DNA of 64,000 nt, from IMG/VR virus record IMGVR_UViG_3300009788_000006, positions 1-64,000 of that record; one strand, written 5' to 3'. The position numbers were made by a program, and so were the translations under genes. Shown here piece after piece: positions 24,045 to 60,763 of the stretch; position 1 is the stretch's first letter; each line of letters opens with the position of its first letter. Origin of the DNA: a virus. The notes under the pieces were generated by a model. The model did no database searches. It was not told the DNA's origin and was given only the letters and a program-made list of their open reading frames with translations.

Positions 24045-24177
24045 CCCCTTGGTGATCGCCTTTGTCTACGTCTAGGCCAGCACCAGACCCCGGCAAAATC
24101 TTTGCCGTCTCTTCTATCTCGCGGATGAACTGACGCGATTCCTCGTTGGCTTTCAGAAGCCCTTCGACAAGATTCAT
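23956..24177 (-). CDS. Small helical protein, possibly the first half of a frameshifted gene
   Basis: 73 residues from ATG 24177, overlapping the lipoprotein stop as ATGA. Residues 1-40 (NLVEGLLKANEESRQFIREIEETAKILPGSGAGLDVDK) look normal; after that the in-frame sequence turns into unlikely residues (ESDCLWRHHGNDEGGCRERPWCR), while the +1 frame looks protein-like. See the shifted 3' part. Not recognised. Confidence 0.45.
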   Translation of the reverse strand: MNLVEGLLKANEESRQFIREIEETAKILPGSGAGLDVDKGDHQGVDQANRESDCLWRHHGNDEGGCRERPWCR

Positions 24178-26015
24178 TCCCATTCTCCTGTGTCGCCAGT
24201 CTCAAACCCGCTTTCGAATATCAAGCCCTCATCCGGCGGCGCCACATGCTCCGGCATCCGGTGCCCGTCGAGCACCCCGAACGCCGCGCGGTAGAAGATA
24301 TCCCCGACGAAGCTCCCGCGGTGAGGGAGGACGTTGCGTGTGCCGAGATCGTTTGCCGGGTACATGTAGCCCCAGTAGTCGACCTGCTGGCCGCTGCACG
24401 GGTCCGTGAACGTTTCGCCCCTCGGTAGCATGGTGATCGTCGGGGCTTGCGAGACGTCGAAGAAGCGCTCGCGGTAACCTCCTGCCAGCCGGCCGGCGCC
24501 GGCGAAGGTGGTGGCGGGCGCGTAGTACACCCATCCCTCACCGTAGGACAGATAGTCTTTGGTCGCGAACGGGGTTCCGGAAACGTCGAAGCTGCCGATC
24601 TGCAATCCTCCGGCGCTGAAGTCGTAGACTTTGACGGTCCGCGTCGGACCCTGGGCGATCACCATCGCGCCCCACAGGCTGACGCCGTCCGACCACAGCG
24701 TGACCCCGCGGGCGGGCTCGGTGGTGCTCCAGATCAGCTCACTGCTGGTCGGGTCTTCGAGGTTGACGCGCCAGAGCTCGGCGGAAAAGCTGGTGCCGGC
24801 GAGCAAGTAGATGGCGCCACCGTGGACCGCGGCGCGGCTGTAGATAGTCGCCTCCAGCGAAGCGAGCTCCCAAAGGACCGCGGCGATGCGGTGACGGGTT
24901 CCGGCCGCCTCGGCGACCTTCCCCTGAGCTTCCTGCGTGGCAACGAGCCATCTCAATATCTCGACGGGTTCCTCAAGTTCTGCGGCTCGGAAAACAGCGA
25001 ACGGGTCGGACGTTCCGCCATCTTCCGAGTCTACATCCGGCGACCCACTTCTGCGTCCGTCGTCTCGAACTCGTAGGGGCTCACTGCGCATCACCTCCTG
25101 TTGTGCGGTCAACGAACTCACTACTGCGAAGGATTCCCCGTCCCCGATCTCGCCCAGCCGCACCCCGCAAGAGCCTGTATAACTTCCGGGGTGTCGCTCC
25201 GGAAGCAGCTGGGCATTTTCAGCTAATTCTGTCAAGTTATCGTCCAGGCACGGCGCCGGCAGCGCCAATGCTGCGTCCGCGTCGTAGACGTGGCAGCCCA
25301 GCACGCCACAGGCGACGGCGTACCGGCCGCCGAGCTCGACCAGGTCCACGGCTGTCGACCGGCTGGCGACGTCCTGGTAGAGGATGCGCAGCCGCTCATC
25401 GGCCGCTGGTGCTTCGAGGCGCCAGAGGGACGCGCCGACGGTGGAACGGCCGGAGGCGGCGATCACGGCTTCGCCAGAGGGCAGATACACGGCTTCGGCT
25501 TCGTCTAGGTAGAATGCGTTTTCGCCATACTCGGGAAAAGCAAGCCAGCATCCGTCTTGCCCCGACTCCTGGCAGATGTTATCCCACCCGGTGGCGTTCC
25601 GAAGTGGCACCGGCCGCCCCTCGATTAGATCGGTTCGCCACACCCCGATCGTGGCGTTTCTCGTGACGATGCATCTCGCGGACGACGGACAAGTAACAGC
25701 CTCGAATAGATCTTCGCGAGTCGTCGAGACCCACTGCGAACGATCTCTCGCCGCCGGCAAAGGCGGGCACTGCGCCCCGGAGCAAAAATCCATAGGTTGA
25801 AACTGAGTCCACAAATCCGCCCCGAGGTGGTGATTCGGCGCCGGCCGCGCCGGGCTGTTGTCGCCACACACTACGCTACTGCTCAGCGGTGCAGTCGCCG
25901 CAGCCCTTCGCAAGTCGCAGGGGCCTTCGTCGAATCCGAGACAGCACCCGGTCAGCACGAGCGCGGTGGCAATGGTCGCTATTCGTCCGACACCTTGCGC
26001 TCCGGCATGCGTCAC
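24174..26015 (-). CDS. Large phage-encoded lipoprotein, host-type surface protein
   Basis: 613 residues from GTG 26015, chosen for GGAGG eight bases upstream. The N-terminus (RIATIATALVLTGCC) is a signal peptide with a lipobox ending at Cys near residue 25, so the mature protein would be lipid-anchored in the envelope. The body is beta-rich with repeated 'GVxLWSDGVSLWG' and 'GGAIYLLAGTSFS' units suggesting a propeller-like fold. The C-terminus GLIFESGFETGDTGEWE matches a motif common at the ends of secreted proteins in some Gram-negative bacteria. Likely acquired from a host; may block superinfection or alter the cell surface, or be virion-borne (inference). Confidence 0.6.
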   Translation of the reverse strand: MTHAGAQGVGRIATIATALVLTGCCLGFDEGPCDLRRAAATAPLSSSVVCGDNSPARPAPNHHLGADLWTQFQPMDFCSGAQCPPLPAARDRSQWVSTTREDLFEAVTCPSSARCIVTRNATIGVWRTDLIEGRPVPLRNATGWDNICQESGQDGCWLAFPEYGENAFYLDEAEAVYLPSGEAVIAASGRSTVGASLWRLEAPAADERLRILYQDVASRSTAVDLVELGGRYAVACGVLGCHVYDADAALALPAPCLDDNLTELAENAQLLPERHPGSYTGSCGVRLGEIGDGESFAVVSSLTAQQEVMRSEPLRVRDDGRRSGSPDVDSEDGGTSDPFAVFRAAELEEPVEILRWLVATQEAQGKVAEAAGTRHRIAAVLWELASLEATIYSRAAVHGGAIYLLAGTSFSAELWRVNLEDPTSSELIWSTTEPARGVTLWSDGVSLWGAMVIAQGPTRTVKVYDFSAGGLQIGSFDVSGTPFATKDYLSYGEGWVYYAPATTFAGAGRLAGGYRERFFDVSQAPTITMLPRGETFTDPCSGQQVDYWGYMYPANDLGTRNVLPHRGSFVGDIFYRAAFGVLDGHRMPEHVAPPDEGLIFESGFETGDTGEWE

Positions 26016-26026
26016 GTGTTGGCCTC
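26012..26026 (-). repeat. 15-base repeated translation start, copy 1
   Basis: tcacgtgttggcctc on the plus strand; on the minus strand it places GAGGCCAACAC before GTG of the lipoprotein gene. An identical copy lies at 26209-26223 before the next gene upstream. Contains CACGTG. Confidence 0.6.
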
Positions 26027-26212
26027 CGATCTGCGCAACCCCTGCGCCTTCCGCCGAAGATTCTGAATCGGCATCCATATGCGGGTCCGCCCGTTGGTCA
26101 GGCAGCCAGGCTCAAGCTGAGGGAATTCCTTGAAAATCCCCGCGCGCTCCTGGCGCTCTTTTTTACCCCTTGCGGTCGCCTCTTCTCTAAGTTGGCACAG
26201 TTTCTTTTTCAC
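26012..26212 (-). CDS. Short basic protein upstream of the lipoprotein gene
   Basis: 66 residues from GTG 26212 (MKKKLCQLREEATARGKKERQERAG), very basic, with no motif. The stop overlaps the lipoprotein GTG as GTGA. Its initiation region shares 15 identical bases with that of the lipoprotein gene (see repeat). Possibly a translational leader for the lipoprotein, or a DNA/RNA-binding peptide. Confidence 0.45.
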   Translation of the reverse strand: MKKKLCQLREEATARGKKERQERAGIFKEFPQLEPGCLTNGRTRIWMPIQNLRRKAQGLRRSEANT

Positions 26213-28096: not shown

Positions 28097-28414
28097 TTAC
28101 TTGTGGCGCGCCGCGGTGGTCATCGGCAACCGGAGCCCGACTCCCTTGCGCTTGTTCCAGATGGCTTTGGCCGCTCCACCGAGGTGCTCAATCGCCTTGT
28201 GTAGCGCGGCAGCGAACGCGCCAAGGAAAAGCGCCAGAGCCGGCGTCACGTTGTCGGCGCCGACCTGGACAAGCATCCAGTTCGCGACCAGCCCGAGCAA
28301 CGGGAGCACGACGGGAACCATCAGCGCTTTTGGGACTTTGCCGACGGCCCAGATCATGATCCAGGCGAGCACGGTGGTCAGACCGGGGATCAGTAACAGA
28401 TTGACCTGTTCCAT
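28097..28414 (-). CDS. Holin-like small membrane protein
   Basis: 105 residues with three hydrophobic segments (about 6-24, 30-50 and 58-73) and a short, strongly basic C-terminus ending TTAARHK, the usual plan of class I holins. TGAGGTG lies before ATG 28414. It is followed by a terminator and preceded by a long non-coding interval. Holin function is inferred from topology; an unrelated small membrane protein remains possible. Confidence 0.6.
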   Translation of the reverse strand: MEQVNLLLIPGLTTVLAWIMIWAVGKVPKALMVPVVLPLLGLVANWMLVQVGADNVTPALALFLGAFAAALHKAIEHLGGAAKAIWNKRKGVGLRLPMTTAARHK

Positions 28415-29003
28415 TTTTTCACCTCAGAAGGTTAAAGCGGCTCCGGTCCACCAGCACGCCCCCGACACAACGCCGAGAGCTTCGCGGTCCATCTGAATCC
28501 AGAGCCGTCAACCAGGAGCCGGAGGAGGAACCCGCTACGACCAAGCGAGACACAACCGATGCGGATACTCCGGCCCCTGGTTCAGGGCTCGGCAATTGCA
28601 GGGAGTAGAGCCGCCAGCTGCAAGCCGGGGCGACAGGCGCCAGCCGTCGCACCATCCGACTGAGCCGGGAAGGTCTCCGGCTTGCAGCTCATGGCTCTGG
28701 TCTCGAATCTCTCGCAGCCCCCGAGGGACTTATGCACGGAATCGCCAGCTAACCTTAGACCAGCCGTTACCGATCTACTCTTCGCTGAACACGCCCCTCG
28801 ATTCCCCACCATGCTAACCGGGGCGGCCGGCTTCTCAACCGTGCCGGGGCCTGCCAAAGATTCGAGAATCCGGCTTCTCGAGGACTTCATGACAGCGACC
28901 CCTGGCTCAGCCAGGATTATGCGATCGGCCACGCCGACGTTACTCGCCATTCGTCCGGTCAAGATTGAGCTTTTGCTCCGGGGCCGGTCTCCGGAATTCC
29001 AGA
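28415..29003. other. ORF-poor, hairpin-rich interval (589 bases)
   Basis: No convincing gene. Many short perfect hairpins: CCCTG/CAGGG (28575/28583), the long stem at 28607-28698, TCGAGAA/TTCTCGA (28862-28881), CCTGGC/GCCAGG (28901-28915), TCGGC/GCCGA (28925-28937). On the minus strand a CATAAT box (28917-28922) abuts the 28901-28915 hairpin, so this could be a structured 5' leader of about 500 bases for the holin-like gene. An independent non-coding RNA is the alternative. Confidence 0.5.
28607..28698. ncRNA. Long stem-loop candidate RNA structure
   Basis: AGCTGCAAGCCGG (28616-28628) is the exact reverse complement of CCGGCTTGCAGCT (28677-28689). Beyond a 3x3 internal loop, AGAGCC (28607-28612) pairs with GGCTCT (28693-28698). 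The loop holds GCGAC/GTCGC and a second AGCCGG (28663-28668) that could pair instead with CCGGCT, so two exclusive folds are possible. Strand not determined. Confidence 0.5.
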
Positions 29004-29180
29004 CTATCGAAACGCCCCGAGAGGCGTGAAATCCTCCCACCGGTTCCGGTACGGGCTGTTCGGCGGATAGTCGCCGCTGATCTTTCGCGCATAGGCCGAT
29101 CTGCGACCAGGGGCGCTCATCGCGCGCTCCTTGGCGGCCTTCCGTTTTGCTCTTTCCTTCAAACGTTTCTCGCTCTTCAT
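29004..29180 (-). CDS. 58-residue basic protein between the non-coding intervals
   Basis: Starts MKSEKRLKERAKRKAAKERA: a strongly basic helix, then a Pro/Tyr/Arg segment (AYARKISGDYPPNSPYRNRW) ending FTPLGAFR. GGGAGA lies seven bases before ATG 29180. Looks like a nucleic-acid-binding or virion packaging peptide; not recognised. It is the only convincing gene between 28415 and 30146. Confidence 0.6.
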   Translation of the reverse strand: MKSEKRLKERAKRKAAKERAMSAPGRRSAYARKISGDYPPNSPYRNRWEDFTPLGAFR

Positions 29181-30146
29181 GCTGTCTCCCTTGGGGATTG
29201 CCGGCCCGTGCTACCGTAGCGGGCCAGCGGTGGGTCGGTTGGGAAGGAGTCACGCCCCTGGTAGCTCGGAGCGGTGAGAAGGCGAGGCCAGGCCCTTGGG
29301 GTCGCGCCTGGAAAACTACCAGGTCTCGGCGGGTCAACGAAACCGCGTGCAAGCCGCAGCAGCGAGGCACCGGATCGATCACTATGGGTAGCTCGCCGAG
29401 GTTGGGCTCGCACACTATCGCCGATGCTTGCGTCGACGATATGCCGGTCGCCCTTTCGCTTGGCGTTGCCGCCAGGCGCGCGCCCAAAGGCCCGCTATTT
29501 AGCTGGCGCTCCAGGAGGCCGCCGCCAACCCTCTCGACCGGAACGGCTGAGAGAGCACATTGCCGACGGCGGTCTGCTGCAACGTCAGAATAGTGACGGG
29601 ATTGCACCGCCCCGCGGTCTCTCACCGCTTGGCCTGGGTTACGACCAGTCCCACGGACACCTCCATCTACGTGCCGCGCGGATAAGGCGCCGTCAGCCCC
29701 GCGCGTACGCCGACCATTGCTCCACCAGGGCGATTTGCCGCTGTCGGTCCTGGTTTCATCGCCTTCACAACGGGCCGCCAGCCTACCGGAGCTTACGCTT
29801 GATCGGTGGTCTCCTCCGGCTCTACCACTCAGCAATGCCAGGCTGTACGGCGACCCTTTCACGCAATGACGCTCCACGCGACCGCCGCTGGCAGGGAGGC
29901 TTTTCCCATGCAATCCGCGGCGGTCGCGTGCAACGTCAGTCATGCCGCCGCCCAATCGATTGGATTCGTGCGGGCTGGTGTGTAGGCTCCAGTCTAGCGA
30001 CCCCTCGCTCCCACAGGGAACGTCGCAAGCCTCCCAGTCAGCCTCGGGGCTTTCGAAGGTACAAGTCTTGCCGAGGTCCGGCGGTGACCCATCAAGTGCC
30101 GCTATTCCGTCGACGCGAATCACGGCCGCTACGTGTGTCCAGATAC
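29181..30146. ncRNA. Candidate large structured non-coding RNA (about 950 bases)
   Basis: No convincing gene, but dense complementary segments: GGCCCG/CGGGCC (29203-29225); CCTGGTAG/CTACCAGG (29257-29264/29316-29323) enclosing CCAGGC/GCCTGG; CTCGGCG/CGCCGAG (29325-29331/29394-29400); CCGCCG/CGGCGG (29519/29567) enclosing CTCTC/GAGAG with inner CCG-GAA-CGG; CGTCA/TGACG (29583-29598); ACCAGG/CCTGGT (29724/29749); CCGGAG/CTCCGG (29786/29814); a 14-pair stem (29875-29888/29917-29930); CCTCGG/CCGAGG (30042/30071). This resembles the ornate large RNAs of phages (GOLLD/ROOL-type size class), without claim of identity. Strand unresolved. Confidence 0.5.
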
Positions 30147-30488
30147 TCACGGGTCAACTTCTTCATCTGGTTCTGGGGCAGGCCCGAGAACACTGACTCG
30201 GTCGCCGGGCTTCAGCACGCACTCAGGGCATGGAATCAACGTATCGAATTGGCGATCCGGATCCCGGACGATGAATAAGAAACCGCACTGAGGACACTTC
30301 TTCTTTCTTGTGGGCCGCTGCGGGAATTCGGCGCGCGTCTCCCACCCCAGATCCGCAATCACGAGCCCCCGGACGTAGGCCGAGAACGTCATCTCTCTGA
30401 CCCGGGCCTCTCTCTGTGCATTGCGCAGAATACCGCTCGGCATACTGACGCTGGTCTTGACCGCGGGTCCGTTGGGGTTCGTCGCCAT
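30147..30488 (-). CDS. Ribbon-helix-helix regulator with a zinc ribbon
   Basis: 113 residues. Residues 10-50 (AVKTSVSMPSGILRNAQREARVREMTFSAYVRGLVIADL) fit the RHH/CopG fold (a basic strand, then two helices). Residues 62-92 (KKKCPQCGFLFIVRDPDRQFDTLIPCPEC) form a C-x2-C...C-x2-C zinc ribbon. A TTGACA box and a -10-like element lie directly before ATG 30488, together with repeated TTTTCACACC sites that may be its own operator. Probably an autoregulated repressor. Confidence 0.7.
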   Translation of the reverse strand: MATNPNGPAVKTSVSMPSGILRNAQREARVREMTFSAYVRGLVIADLGWETRAEFPQRPTRKKKCPQCGFLFIVRDPDRQFDTLIPCPECVLKPGDRVSVLGPAPEPDEEVDP

Positions 30489-30495
30489 GCCCTGT

Positions 30496-30525
30496 ATCTT
30501 TTCACACCGCGGGCCGGGGTGTCAA
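30496..30525 (-). promoter_or_regulatory. Promoter of the RHH/zinc-ribbon gene
   Basis: TTGACA (30520-30525, minus strand), 18 bases, AAAGAT (30496-30501), ATG at 30488. The -10 is weak. The leader would be very short. It overlaps the putative operator repeats. Confidence 0.5.
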
Positions 30526-30541
30526 GAACTATTTTCACACC
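30499..30541. promoter_or_regulatory. Putative operator with repeated TTTTCACACC
   Basis: TTTTCACACC occurs at 30499-30508 and 30532-30541, 33 bases apart (about three helical turns), with an inverted GGTGT at 30519-30523 between them. The sites flank the -35 of the RHH gene, as expected for cooperative RHH binding. Confidence 0.5.
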
Positions 30542-30577
30542 TTCGCCCGTTCTGCCCGTGTGCTACCATCGCCACCC

Positions 30578-31018
30578 ATGGCGGACGATCCCATCCAGAT
30601 AGCACTCCTCGAAGAAGTCAGGAAGCTCATCGAAGCAAAGTTCGCGGCGTCCCAGGCCGCCTCGGAAGCGGCAGTGGAAGCTTCCGAGAACGCTACGACC
30701 GCCGTGGCCGTGATGGGCAAGCAAATCCAAGGCGAGCTCCACGAGCTATCAGACCGGCTTCTGGAGCTTCTCGCGATGATCCGGGAAGACAGGGCACGGG
30801 AGGGAGCGTCAGCTTCGGGTATCGAGGCCATCGCGACTGCCTTCAAAGCCGCCGGCGCCGACCGCGAGAGAATCGGCAAGATCGAAGGCCGCCTCGACGG
30901 CGAGACGCTCCGCTTAGACGGACGCATCGGCAAGCAAGCGATACAGTTGGTAATCATCTGGGGCTTTATCGTCATCTTGGGGCTCAGGGTAGCTGCCGAA
31001 ATCCTGGGAATTCCCTAA
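30578..31018 (+). CDS. Coiled-coil membrane-anchored protein
   Basis: 146 residues from ATG 30578. A long charged helix with heptads fills residues 5-110 (IALLEEVRKLIEAKFAASQAA...), and the C-terminus is one transmembrane segment (AIQLVIIWGFIVILGLRVAAEIL). The plan (cytoplasmic coiled coil, C-terminal anchor) recurs in small phage proteins of unknown function. Divergent from the RHH gene, so possibly under its control. Confidence 0.55.
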   Translation: MADDPIQIALLEEVRKLIEAKFAASQAASEAAVEASENATTAVAVMGKQIQGELHELSDRLLELLAMIREDRAREGASASGIEAIATAFKAAGADRERIGKIEGRLDGETLRLDGRIGKQAIQLVIIWGFIVILGLRVAAEILGIP

Positions 31019-31032
31019 CCTTAGTCCTTTTC

Positions 31033-31064
31033 GCTTGCGGCCCGGGCAAGCATTCTGCTAAGAT
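31033..31064 (+). promoter_or_regulatory. Leaderless-type promoter with internal palindrome
   Basis: TTGCGG (31035-31040), 18 bases, TAAGAT (31059-31064), ATG at 31073 with no ribosome site. GCTTGC/GCAAGC (31033-31038/31046-31051) is an inverted repeat over the -35 and spacer, a likely operator. Confidence 0.55.
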
Positions 31065-31072
31065 TCCCGCCC

Positions 31073-31288
31073 ATGAAAAGGGACAGGGCGGCCGAGTACT
31101 TCAGCGGGCTTCGAGCTCACCTAGAAGAGTACCGAAGTCGCTACTCCGAGCAGAATGGAGAGATAGCTGCCGCGCTTGACCGGCTCCAAGAGATCCAGAG
31201 CCAGCACGGTACGGCCTCCACACCTGAGGACCGCCACCAGGTCCACGAGAGTCTGCGCTGTTTCATCGCGTGGCTTGAAGGGCTATAG
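31073..31288 (+). CDS. Small helical protein, probably leaderless
   Basis: 71 residues, helical throughout (EYFSGLRAHLEEYRSRYSEQNGEIAAALDRLQEIQSQHG...LRCFIAWLEGL), charged. No Shine-Dalgarno; the promoter -10 ends eight bases before ATG 31073. No motif recognised. Could be a dimeric regulator or anti-regulator (speculative). Confidence 0.55.
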   Translation: MKRDRAAEYFSGLRAHLEEYRSRYSEQNGEIAAALDRLQEIQSQHGTASTPEDRHQVHESLRCFIAWLEGL

Positions 31289-31308
31289 CGCGGACTCCCA
31301 GCACCAGG

Positions 31309-31797
31309 ATGGACGCCGAGGGCTTCAGGGTTGCGCGCCAGCACCGGCGCGGTCAGAATCGTCAGGTGCCTATTGAGTTCAAAATCATCACCGCCGTTCT
31401 CGCACTTGGCGCCGGCCTCAGTCTCACCTCCTGGCCGTGGTCCTGGACTCGCTGGCTGTGGTCGGCCACCTGTATCTGTGCGGCGCTGACCTTCGCTCGG
31501 CCGGTGATCGAGGCGCTTGGCGGTGTCGACCCGGTCATCCCGCGCTGGGCTCTGCTGGTGCTCGGCCCCGCGTCTATCGCGACACTGCTCGACATCTGGC
31601 GCCGGACATCTCGACGGCTGCCGCGCCGCCTGACACTTGCTGCCGCTGCGGCGCTCAGCTGCGCCCTTGTGGCCTGGCCGTTGTACGCCGTGGCGCCGAA
31701 GACGGCGGCCGTGCTGTGCTATCTGCCGCTCTGGGTTCTCTTCGGGTCCGTGATACGGTGGAGGCTCATCCCACCAAAGGAGAAAGTCCATGCCTGA
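31309..31797 (+). CDS. Four-helix membrane protein
   Basis: 162 residues from ATG 31309 (a GTG further in, before PIEFKII, is an alternative). Four hydrophobic segments at about 24-44, 48-68, 80-97 and 110-155, with Arg-rich loops (WRRTSRRLPRRL). No known family. It overlaps the next gene by eight bases. Possibly an envelope-modifying or exclusion protein. Confidence 0.5.
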   Translation: MDAEGFRVARQHRRGQNRQVPIEFKIITAVLALGAGLSLTSWPWSWTRWLWSATCICAALTFARPVIEALGGVDPVIPRWALLVLGPASIATLLDIWRRTSRRLPRRLTLAAAAALSCALVAWPLYAVAPKTAAVLCYLPLWVLFGSVIRWRLIPPKEKVHA

Positions 31798-32200
31798 CCC
31801 CGCCTTTTACGCCGCCGCCCTTATCGATCGCATCGAGGCCCGCGGAGTCAACGTCGACGTCCCCGCCCAGGACCTTATCTTCGGCTACGCCACCACGCTC
31901 CACGCCGAGCTCGAGGAGCACTGGGACGGCGCGTCCGGCAAGGCGGTCCGTGCCGGGATCGACGACTACGCCTGGCTCCCCGCTGTCACCGCCCGGCAGG
32001 TCTTCGAGTTCTTTTTGATGATGGGCGCCAAGTCGGAGCGGCTGCGCCAAGCCGAGCTCGCGTCGGCCCTCTCTCAGCACCGAGACGAGGTGGCGAGACT
32101 CGAGGAAGGCGGGAATGATCTCGGGGTGCTCGAGCAGCTAGCCGCGACTATCACCGCAGTGGGTCCGACGGGGCTCTGCTTTTCCGACCCCGGTCCCTGA
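31790..32200 (+). CDS. Hypothetical protein, 136 residues
   Basis: Good ribosome site (AAAGGAG) before ATG 31790. Helical and acidic (FYAAALIDRIEARGVNVDVPAQDLIFGYATTLHAELEEHW...). Not recognised. Ends eight bases before a tRNA gene in the same direction, so the tRNA may share its transcript. Confidence 0.55.
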   Translation: MPDPAFYAAALIDRIEARGVNVDVPAQDLIFGYATTLHAELEEHWDGASGKAVRAGIDDYAWLPAVTARQVFEFFLMMGAKSERLRQAELASALSQHRDEVARLEEGGNDLGVLEQLAATITAVGPTGLCFSDPGP

Positions 32201-32208
32201 CCACTTCA

Positions 32209-32284
32209 GCTCCGATAGCTCAGCCGGAAGAGCGGCTGCCTCGTAAGCAGCGGGTCGGCGGTTCGAATCCGTCTCGGAGCTCCA
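32209..32284 (+). tRNA. tRNA-Thr (CGT)
   Basis: Complete cloverleaf: acceptor GCTCCGA/TCGGAGC, D-arm GCTC/GAGC, anticodon stem GCTGC/GCAGC with loop CTCGTAA (anticodon CGT at 32242-32244, reading ACG), T-arm with GTTCGAATC, and encoded CCA at 32282-32284. Confidence 0.95.
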
Positions 32285-58882: not shown

Positions 58883-59151
58883 AGAGCATCCGAGACATCC
58901 TCCGGCCGGCCGCCTTGGCCGAACTCAACCGCGACGGTCGCCGGCATCGTCTCGCCCGCATCTGGCGCGAGTACCACGGCCTCACCAACGAGGAGGCCGC
59001 AGCGATCTGCGGCGTGGAGCCCTACAGCTTCAGCCGCTTTGGGACCCACCGACAGCGACCGGAAGCGGGGCGGCTGGTGGCCAAGGGGATCGGGCTCGAC
59101 AGCAGCACCCGGCCGTGGAAGGCGGCGGTCGCTGGCACCATCCTAGCGTAG
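58879..59151 (+). CDS. Helix-turn-helix protein, candidate repressor
   Basis: 90 residues. NRDGRRHRLARIWREYHGLTNEEAAAICGVEPYSFSRFGTHRQRPEAGRLVAKGIGL has the layout of a helix-turn-helix (LTNEEAAAICGV, then the recognition helix EPYSFSRF). Being expressed from the operator region it is the leading candidate to bind the GGCAA-N4-TTGCC sites. Its stop codon lies inside a tRNA-like element. Confidence 0.6.
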   Translation: MKSIRDILRPAALAELNRDGRRHRLARIWREYHGLTNEEAAAICGVEPYSFSRFGTHRQRPEAGRLVAKGIGLDSSTRPWKAAVAGTILA

Positions 59152-59207
59152 CTCAGACGGCAGAGCGCTCGGAGAGGTCGCGGGTTCGAGCCCCGCCGGA
59201 CCTACCA
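59142..59207 (+). tRNA. Degenerate tRNA-like element (no anticodon arm)
   Basis: A good D-arm (GCTC/GAGC, 59151-59166), a perfect T-arm (GCGGG-TTCGAGC-CCCGC, 59180-59196), an acceptor 3' strand CGGACCT, discriminator A and encoded CCA (59205-59207). But only 13 bases lie between D- and T-arms and the 5' acceptor strand does not pair, so this is not a functional cloverleaf. A deleted tRNA, a tRNA mimic, or a remnant of an attachment site are possible. Confidence 0.6.
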
Positions 59208-59642
59208 GCAAGCGGGAGGGGCGCACCTCGGGCTCTTCCCCCGGTTAGGGGTTGCCTGAGACCACGCAGAGGGTGAGAGCCTTCGACTATTCCCGTTGAC
59301 CAGGGTGCGGGCCGTGTCGCTCGCTAACTGAGCACAGAGCCTGGATTTCCGCCGAACCTCTCGGCCGGTCAGGTGAAACCGGCATCCCCGCGACGCAAGA
59401 CGCAAGCGCGTCCCCGTCTCCTCTGCGTGACTTTGTCCGGCCACCGCGCGCCGACATCTTTGGGAGTATCTTTTCCCCGCCTGCCCAGTTGGTGACCCGG
59501 TGGGCTGGTTTCGCGTAACCCGGGATACCGGCTGTCCGGTGCGGCTGCACCCCTGCTCGGCCACCGAAGAGGCGGAGCGCTTGTGAGAAGCTCGAGGGGT
59601 GGGCGGCTGGATCTTCGCCGCCTGCTGTAATCATGGGATCAG
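59208..59642 (-). other. ORF-poor interval downstream of a promoter
   Basis: 435 bases without a convincing gene although two overlapping minus frames are open (59202-59564, 59287-59634). The promoter at 59643-59670 reads into it. Hairpins include GGCGGC/GCCGCC (near 59604-59624), ACCGG/CCGGT (near 59531) and GCCGG/CCGGC (near 59372). It could be a non-coding RNA or a poorly conserved leaderless gene starting at ATG 59634. Confidence 0.4.
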
Positions 59643-59670
59643 TCTATACGACTCCGCCCCGGCTTTGCAA
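59643..59670 (-). promoter_or_regulatory. Promoter of the TTGCAA-N16-TATAGA type, copy 1
   Basis: TTGCAA (59665-59670), 16 bases, TATAGA (59643-59648) on the minus strand, with CCGG on both sides of the -35. Same architecture as 60472-60499. An ATG lies eight bases downstream of the -10. Confidence 0.6.
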
Positions 59671-59751
59671 CCGGAGCGGCGACGATGATTACAGAGGCAG
59701 CCCGGAATCCAAGCGGGCGGATTTCATCCTACCGCGCCGAGGTAGTGCGGG

Positions 59752-60515: not shown

Positions 60516-60592
60516 TGGTGGCCCCGGCGGGATTCGAACCCGCAATAACCGGATTTTGAGGCCGGCGCCTTTTCCGTTTAGACCACGGAGCC
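60516..60592 (-). tRNA. tRNA with CAA anticodon (Leu by code), short variable loop
   Basis: Acceptor GGCTCCG/CGGGGCC (one U-G pair), D-stem GTCT/AGGC, anticodon loop CTCAAAA in a CCGG stem with a C-U closing mismatch, T-arm GCGGG/CCCGC with TTCGAAT, encoded CCA at 60516-60518. The anticodon reads UUG. A bacterial tRNA-Leu normally has a long variable arm; here it is only about five bases. Confidence 0.8.
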
Positions 60593-60594
60593 AT

Positions 60595-60682
60595 TGGTGC
60601 CAGGGGTAGGATTCGAACCTACGATGGGATCTTTCGAGACCGGATTTACAGTCCGGCGCTTTCACCGCTCGGCCACCCTGGC
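60595..60682 (-). tRNA. tRNA-Tyr (GTA)
   Basis: Acceptor GCCAGGG/CCCTGGC, anticodon stem CCGGA/TCCGG with loop CTGTAAA, a long variable arm as expected for tRNA-Tyr, T-arm with GTTCGAATC, encoded CCA at 60595-60597. Two bases separate it from the next tRNA. Confidence 0.92.
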
Positions 60683-60688
60683 TGAAGT

Positions 60689-60763
60689 TGGTAGACCCCT
60701 TCGGATTCGAACCGAAAATCTTCAGATCCTAAATCTGACCGTTGCCATTTAGCCTAGAGGTCC
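60689..60763 (-). tRNA. tRNA with TAG anticodon (Leu by code), short variable loop
   Basis: Acceptor GGACCTC/GGGGTCT (two G-U pairs), anticodon stem TCAGA/TCTGA with loop TTTAGGA, T-arm TTCGG/CCGAA with TTCGAAT, encoded CCA at 60689-60691. The D-stem pairs poorly and the variable loop is short, so identity as tRNA-Leu is by anticodon only. First of the three-tRNA transcript. Confidence 0.7.

Follow-up and report, generated by a model that had tools for sequence, protein, structure and literature searches.

A possible structured RNA in two domains, about 1.5 kb long and GOLLD- and ROOL-like in scale only, on the minus strand of a tailed phage genome

The GOLLD and ROOL RNAs form cages of unknown purpose. 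GOLLD is phage-borne, more than 800 nt long and elaborately folded, with domains joined by a linker able to carry genes such as tRNAs; ROOL is a large RNA of phages and prophages, often found near tRNAs; the function of both is unknown (PMC12286853). In Staphylococcus phage K (Herelleviridae), long non-coding RNAs were seen by RNA-seq and likened to GOLLD and ROOL by their tRNA proximity and abundance (PMC9241854). An earlier note had suggested a large structured RNA, a member of such a class or a new one, at positions 29181–30146 of another phage genome. This remains the best-supported reading of the locus; however, it applies to the minus strand, extends to about 28430, and comes with no detected membership in GOLLD, ROOL, or any other Rfam 15 family.

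The window, that is, the whole stretch of DNA analysed (64,000 nucleotides), comprises bases 1–64000 of the 82,021-base virus record IMGVR_UViG_3300009788_000006. An exact 123-base terminal repeat (1–123 and 81899–82021 of the whole record) and a second IMG/VR contig, IMGVR_UViG_3300024265_000238, which is 100% identical and bridges the junction of the genome ends, indicate that the genome is circular and complete, with a length of about 81.9 kb; the record itself states no completeness. Capsid, portal, and tape-measure genes identify a tailed phage. The interval 29181–30146 forms the central part of the genome's longest stretch lacking a coding-like frame, and the largest low-coding gap by codon score amounts to 2145 bases, counting a weakly scoring 113-aa gene. 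Minus-strand genes flank the region, downstream from 28414 to 26484 and directly upstream at 30488–30147. The features are, from upstream to downstream:

30147–30488, minus strand: 113-aa gene opening the minus-strand gene run; codon score positive, though weak
29959–30150, minus strand: truncated 5' half (codons 1–64) of a phage gene, homologous to the N-terminal part of phage proteins of 127–137 aa
28582–30150, minus strand: 522-codon open frame, from the truncated gene through nearly all of the structured region
29385–29955, minus strand: best part of domain A (z −5.0 in synonymous shuffles)
29867–29939, minus strand: hairpin 1, 21 pairs with one G.G mismatch, −53.5 kcal/mol, containing a 14-pair stem
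29504–29588, minus strand: hairpin 2, a paralogue of hairpin 1
29271–29628, minus strand: multi-branched domain predicted from base-pair probabilities; inverted repeat I4
29004–29180, minus strand: 58-aa basic ORF (MKSEKRLKERAKRKAAKERA...) separating domains A and B; its ribosome-binding site is plausible and its codon score weakly positive
28430–29003, minus strand: domain B, fold z about −5
28643–28929, minus strand: imperfect 287-nt palindrome in domain B, arms 28643–28723 and 28845–28929, 70% over 87 nt
28607–28698, minus strand: 20-pair hairpin in domain B; among 852 windows of 200 nt, the one containing it is the most stable
28097–28414, minus strand: 105-aa membrane gene after domain B, holin-like by eye

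The 113-aa protein has a ribbon-helix-helix-like N-terminus (by eye) and a CxxC..CxxC zinc ribbon (weak family matches). A tRNA-Thr gene (CGT) lies at 32209–32284 on the opposite strand, about 2.2 kb from the region, and a cluster of three tRNA genes (60516–60763) is 30 kb away from the structured sequence. The tRNA-Thr closes a plus-strand run among the minus-strand genes (30560–32284), divergent from the structured region and composed of coiled-coil/membrane, membrane, and 136-aa genes. Farther along the minus strand, a 634-aa gene (24174–26078) has a lipoprotein-like N-terminus and no family match, and is large for an uncharacterised phage protein.

The search for known families, suggested with GOLLD, ROOL, and other large RNAs in mind, gave no match. 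Rfam 15 yields nothing relevant at the gathering level, or at E<=10 for 28400–30600, the sub-threshold hits being irrelevant. The GOLLD model (RF02032) has no match in the 82-kb genome or in 28400–30600 at E<=10, with no GOLLD positive control having rung. The ROOL model (RF03087) has no match anywhere in the genome; as a positive control, it scores 130.4 bits on the ROOL of L. salivarius pMP118. No homologue of the region was seen by DNA or translated search in phages, plasmids, viral contigs, and 85,000 species genomes, nor were relatives found via both neighbouring genes, the 58-aa ORF, or the 522-aa frame. Since no RNA homologue was found, there is no covariation support. The capsid protein retrieves only the same phage (100%) or relatives with at most 36% identity, hence too distant for RNA homology. 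Two pattern searches gave chance matches that were discarded: a degenerate repeated-hairpin pattern matched once, inside genes of an unrelated phage, and a hairpin with a variable interior matched once, inside a tail-assembly-like gene.

The complementary segments that had drawn attention to the interval are present. CCTGGTAG at 29257–29264 pairs with CTACCAGG at 29317–29324, one base away from the position first given, and the 14-pair stem is found exactly as described, at 29875–29888/29917–29930. Taken as a whole, however, the segments do not exceed chance: counting perfect Watson–Crick stems within 250 nt over 29181–30146, we find 16 with at least 7 pairs vs. 16.5 in dinucleotide shuffles (60), and 4 with at least 8 pairs vs. 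4.7. The 14-pair stem is beyond chance (one stem of at least 12 pairs vs. 0.0, seen in none of 60 shuffles); it grows to 22-nt arms with one G.G mismatch, that is, 21 pairs, at 29867–29938.

Fold stability separates the strands. Against shuffled controls, the whole interval is clearly stable on the minus strand (z −3.8) and hardly so on the plus strand (z −1.7), which reverses the slight lean toward the plus strand reported from wobble pairs. For 29181–29960, z is about −3.9 on the minus and −2.1 on the plus strand. The strongest structure is found beyond the interval originally considered, at 28430–29005 (minus about −4.9, plus −3.4), and further shuffle runs for domain B gave −5.2 and −4.9 on the minus strand, −1.9 and −1.7 on the plus strand. 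Both domains are more stable on the minus strand than 60 of 60 shuffles, and the minus strand folds better than the plus strand across the whole of each. Equal-length control windows (n=32) range from −3.2 to +1.7 on a pooled scale, and other low-coding stretches (n=11) from −2.3 to +2.1, with one exception, 59152–59727 (−3.6, minus strand). Treated with the same method, the validated ROOL of L. salivarius pMP118 shows a z of only −1.5, hence a low z is neither required for nor proof of this class of RNA. Helix lengths in the region resemble those in shuffles, and the enrichment of GNRA tetraloops, tried as a strand test, is not significant.

The exceptional stretch belongs to a second low-coding gap of 600 bases on the minus strand (59152–59751, z −3.6), about 0.8 kb from the three-tRNA cluster and adjoining a weak tRNA match at 59145–59204. 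Its position suits RNAs of the GOLLD/ROOL type better than that of the main region; it has no Rfam match.

Within domain A, the predicted multi-branched part is closed by 29628–29609/29288–29271 (17 pairs, predicted) and encloses several branches, including a predicted 21-pair helix, 29494–29472/29311–29289. Hairpins 1 and 2 are alike in both outer arms, with unrelated tops; five pairs differ between them, two of the changes being compensated and three broken, which is weak evidence. In domain B, base-pair probabilities place a helix at 28867–28851/28717–28701 inside the 287-nt palindrome, and perfect Watson–Crick stems are enriched (15 with at least 7 pairs vs. 7.1; 2 with at least 10 pairs vs. 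0.1).

Extra stability in general can stem from quasi-palindromes, and the signal of domain B is in part that of the 287-nt imperfect palindrome. The stem enrichment and the palindrome are what would be expected of a DNA-level element (a replication origin, or a packaging or recombination site), whose palindromes act as DNA while the RNA fold is a by-product. The location in the largest low-coding gap of a circular genome also agrees with such an element, as does the segment 28501–28700, the most stable 200-nt window among 852 scanned, which is stable whichever strand is folded (−5.9 and −5.2). We consider it quite unlikely, however, given the better folding of the minus strand over whole domains, the lack of iterated binding sites in the region, and the position of the main GC-skew switch, which is elsewhere, near 20 kb.

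The statement that the interval holds no convincing gene is largely borne out by the codon score, which is non-coding over the largest gap of the genome; from 29960 to 28430, codon use of the phage's own genes is seen in no frame, save for the 58-aa ORF, which adjoins the start of the interval and has no homologue that we could find. It fails for codons 1–64 of the antisense open frame (29959–30150), which are a true, truncated gene. The GTG start of this gene overlaps the stop of the 113-aa gene (GTGA), and its first 60 or so codons show 44% identity to two phage proteins of 127–137 aa. These full-length homologues carry on with a WGDLRDY motif and then some 70 further residues, while nothing resembling the WGDLRDY half, sought also as a possible second exon, turns up in any frame of the complete genome. 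The homology ends near 29983, and the structured sequence starts near 29955. The protein family (WTHVA...GSEGSL...WGDLRDY) has no Pfam model and no confident PHROG. Longer members occur in L084 and L085; in the L084 homologue (L084:89–526), a TGA stands in frame close to the start (ATGTGACAATGGACTCACGT), which might mean that the true start is downstream or that the phage recodes TGA.

That the gene breaks just before the conserved WGDLRDY motif, where the structured RNA starts, could point to an intron-like mobile element, either degenerate or of a novel type, whose loop holds the 58-aa ORF. We regard this as very improbable, as the complete genome lacks a downstream exon, and the region gives no group I or group II intron match at E<=10; group-II-D1D4-1 (RF01998) in particular is absent, while its positive control rang.

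The concern, raised from the outset, that the 522-codon antisense frame might be translated proved apt: its lack of stops goes far beyond what chance allows, yet the sequence it would encode resembles a random translation. Codons 66–522 (457 codons) contain 0 stops vs. 12.5 expected (sd 3.3; minimum of 4 in 2000 dinucleotide shuffles), and the other two frames have 22 and 18 stops; a Poisson estimate of the zero-stop probability is about 4 in a million. This argues against simple decay, and for ribosome passage or a very young protein. The frame might be translated, either because the truncated gene became fused to a once non-coding stretch and now yields a chimera whose C-terminus arose de novo, or as a stop-free path on which ribosomes shield the transcript from Rho-dependent termination ahead of the downstream genes, the RNA structure then being a property of the mRNA. 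That it continues exactly from a real gene, whose GTG start is translationally coupled, fits this explanation, and so do a mild surplus of G in the first codon position and a period-3 signal of 3.0, barely above the stop-free null (95% point 2.6). However, the codon score is −0.11 per codon vs. +0.05 to +0.39 in accepted genes, the amino-acid make-up is within the random-translation null, the 522-aa translation has no match in Pfam or phage records apart from homologues of codons 1–64, and the 58-aa ORF occupies another frame.

The structure also exceeds what the frame explains. Synonymous-codon shuffles (40), which leave any protein encoded by the frame unchanged, give z of −5.0 for 29955–29385 and −5.6 for 29003–28585 on the minus strand, with none of the 40 as good, hence the 522-aa frame does not account for the stability. 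The same procedure in four real genes gives z from −1.2 to +1.8, the linker 29385–29200 shows no excess stability, and the plus strand yields −4.3 (A) and −3.4 (B). Altogether, we judge a translated frame, as the explanation of the locus, to be unlikely.

A decaying spacer left by the loss of the 3' half of the old gene, in which template-switch quasi-palindromes in GC-rich DNA produced functionless hairpins, is in our view rather improbable. It would agree with the truncated gene next door and its missing half, with the duplicated hairpins and imperfect inverted repeats, and with the failure to find conservation anywhere. Nevertheless, decay should have brought stops into the open frame, which has none in 457 codons; the two domains beat shuffles, whereas nearly all other gaps do not; and 1.5 kb of dead DNA is unusual in a compact phage genome.

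The explanation we favour, tentatively and at a little less than even confidence, is an orphan structured RNA, about 1.5 kb long and in two domains, on the minus strand from 29960 to 28430, GOLLD/ROOL-like in scale only. It rests on the stability of both domains beyond shuffles, control windows, and synonymous shuffles; the first rank of 28501–28700 in the 852-window scan; the preference for the minus strand; the absence of a codon signature; the random-like amino acids; and the duplicated hairpin that keeps both outer arms. Domain A (29955–29385, with the multi-branched part to 29271) and domain B (29003–28430) would be joined by a weakly folded linker with the 58-aa basic ORF. The RNA is likely to be part of a minus-strand transcript running from before 30488 into the membrane-protein gene at 28414; in the infected cell it would then fold, like GOLLD and ROOL, to give a stable particle, perhaps one that includes the 58-aa protein. 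Its transcription, processing, protein binding, and any function are what we infer; the excess stability, the strand preference, the position, the missing coding signature, and the lack of a match to any known family are observed.

Several results weigh against a structured RNA: the lack of homologues and covariation; the low z of ROOL itself; the plus strand, which is also somewhat stable (−2.1 for A and −3.4 for B), as in a DNA palindrome; the GNRA tetraloops, not enriched, and the shuffle-like helix lengths; the lack of a convincing promoter or terminator signal of the region's own; and the hairpin paralogues, in which broken pairs outnumber compensated ones. Above all, the stop-free frame suggests ribosome passage, and it is chiefly this frame without a coding signature that keeps us from giving a free-standing structured RNA even odds. 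A more specific version, which we think improbable, would be a new class of large phage RNA in two domains whose sequence extends a truncated gene in the 3' direction without stops, letting ribosomes pass into and along it and so coupling translation to RNA folding, protection, or assembly.

If true, the structured RNA would represent a third, unrelated class of large folded phage RNA and would help to show what such classes share; the unusual tie to a stop-free frame and a gene cut short provides concrete, testable predictions on transcription and translation. Should the locus prove to be a dead spacer or an element acting as DNA, it would still caution that shuffle-based stability alone does not identify such RNA.

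Among known systems, group I and group II introns share with the candidate a structured RNA that breaks a phage gene and has a small ORF inside, but the candidate has neither a core match nor a second exon. The phage K RNAs are in fact transcribed, whereas transcription of the candidate is a prediction; no DNA similarity of the region to them was found, and the ROOL and GOLLD models likewise find nothing in phage K. The candidate differs from ROOL in having no model match and in being more stable than the pMP118 ROOL (z −3.9/−4.9 vs. −1.5). From GOLLD it differs in the absence of a covariance-model match and of covariation evidence; as to tRNA neighbours, the cluster is distant, but the lone tRNA-Thr gene lies about 2.2 kb away on the other strand. 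The likeness to GOLLD consists in the location in a phage genome, here a complete one, in a candidate length of about 1.5 kb against more than about 800 nt, and in predicted elaborate folding with domains joined by a gene-bearing linker.
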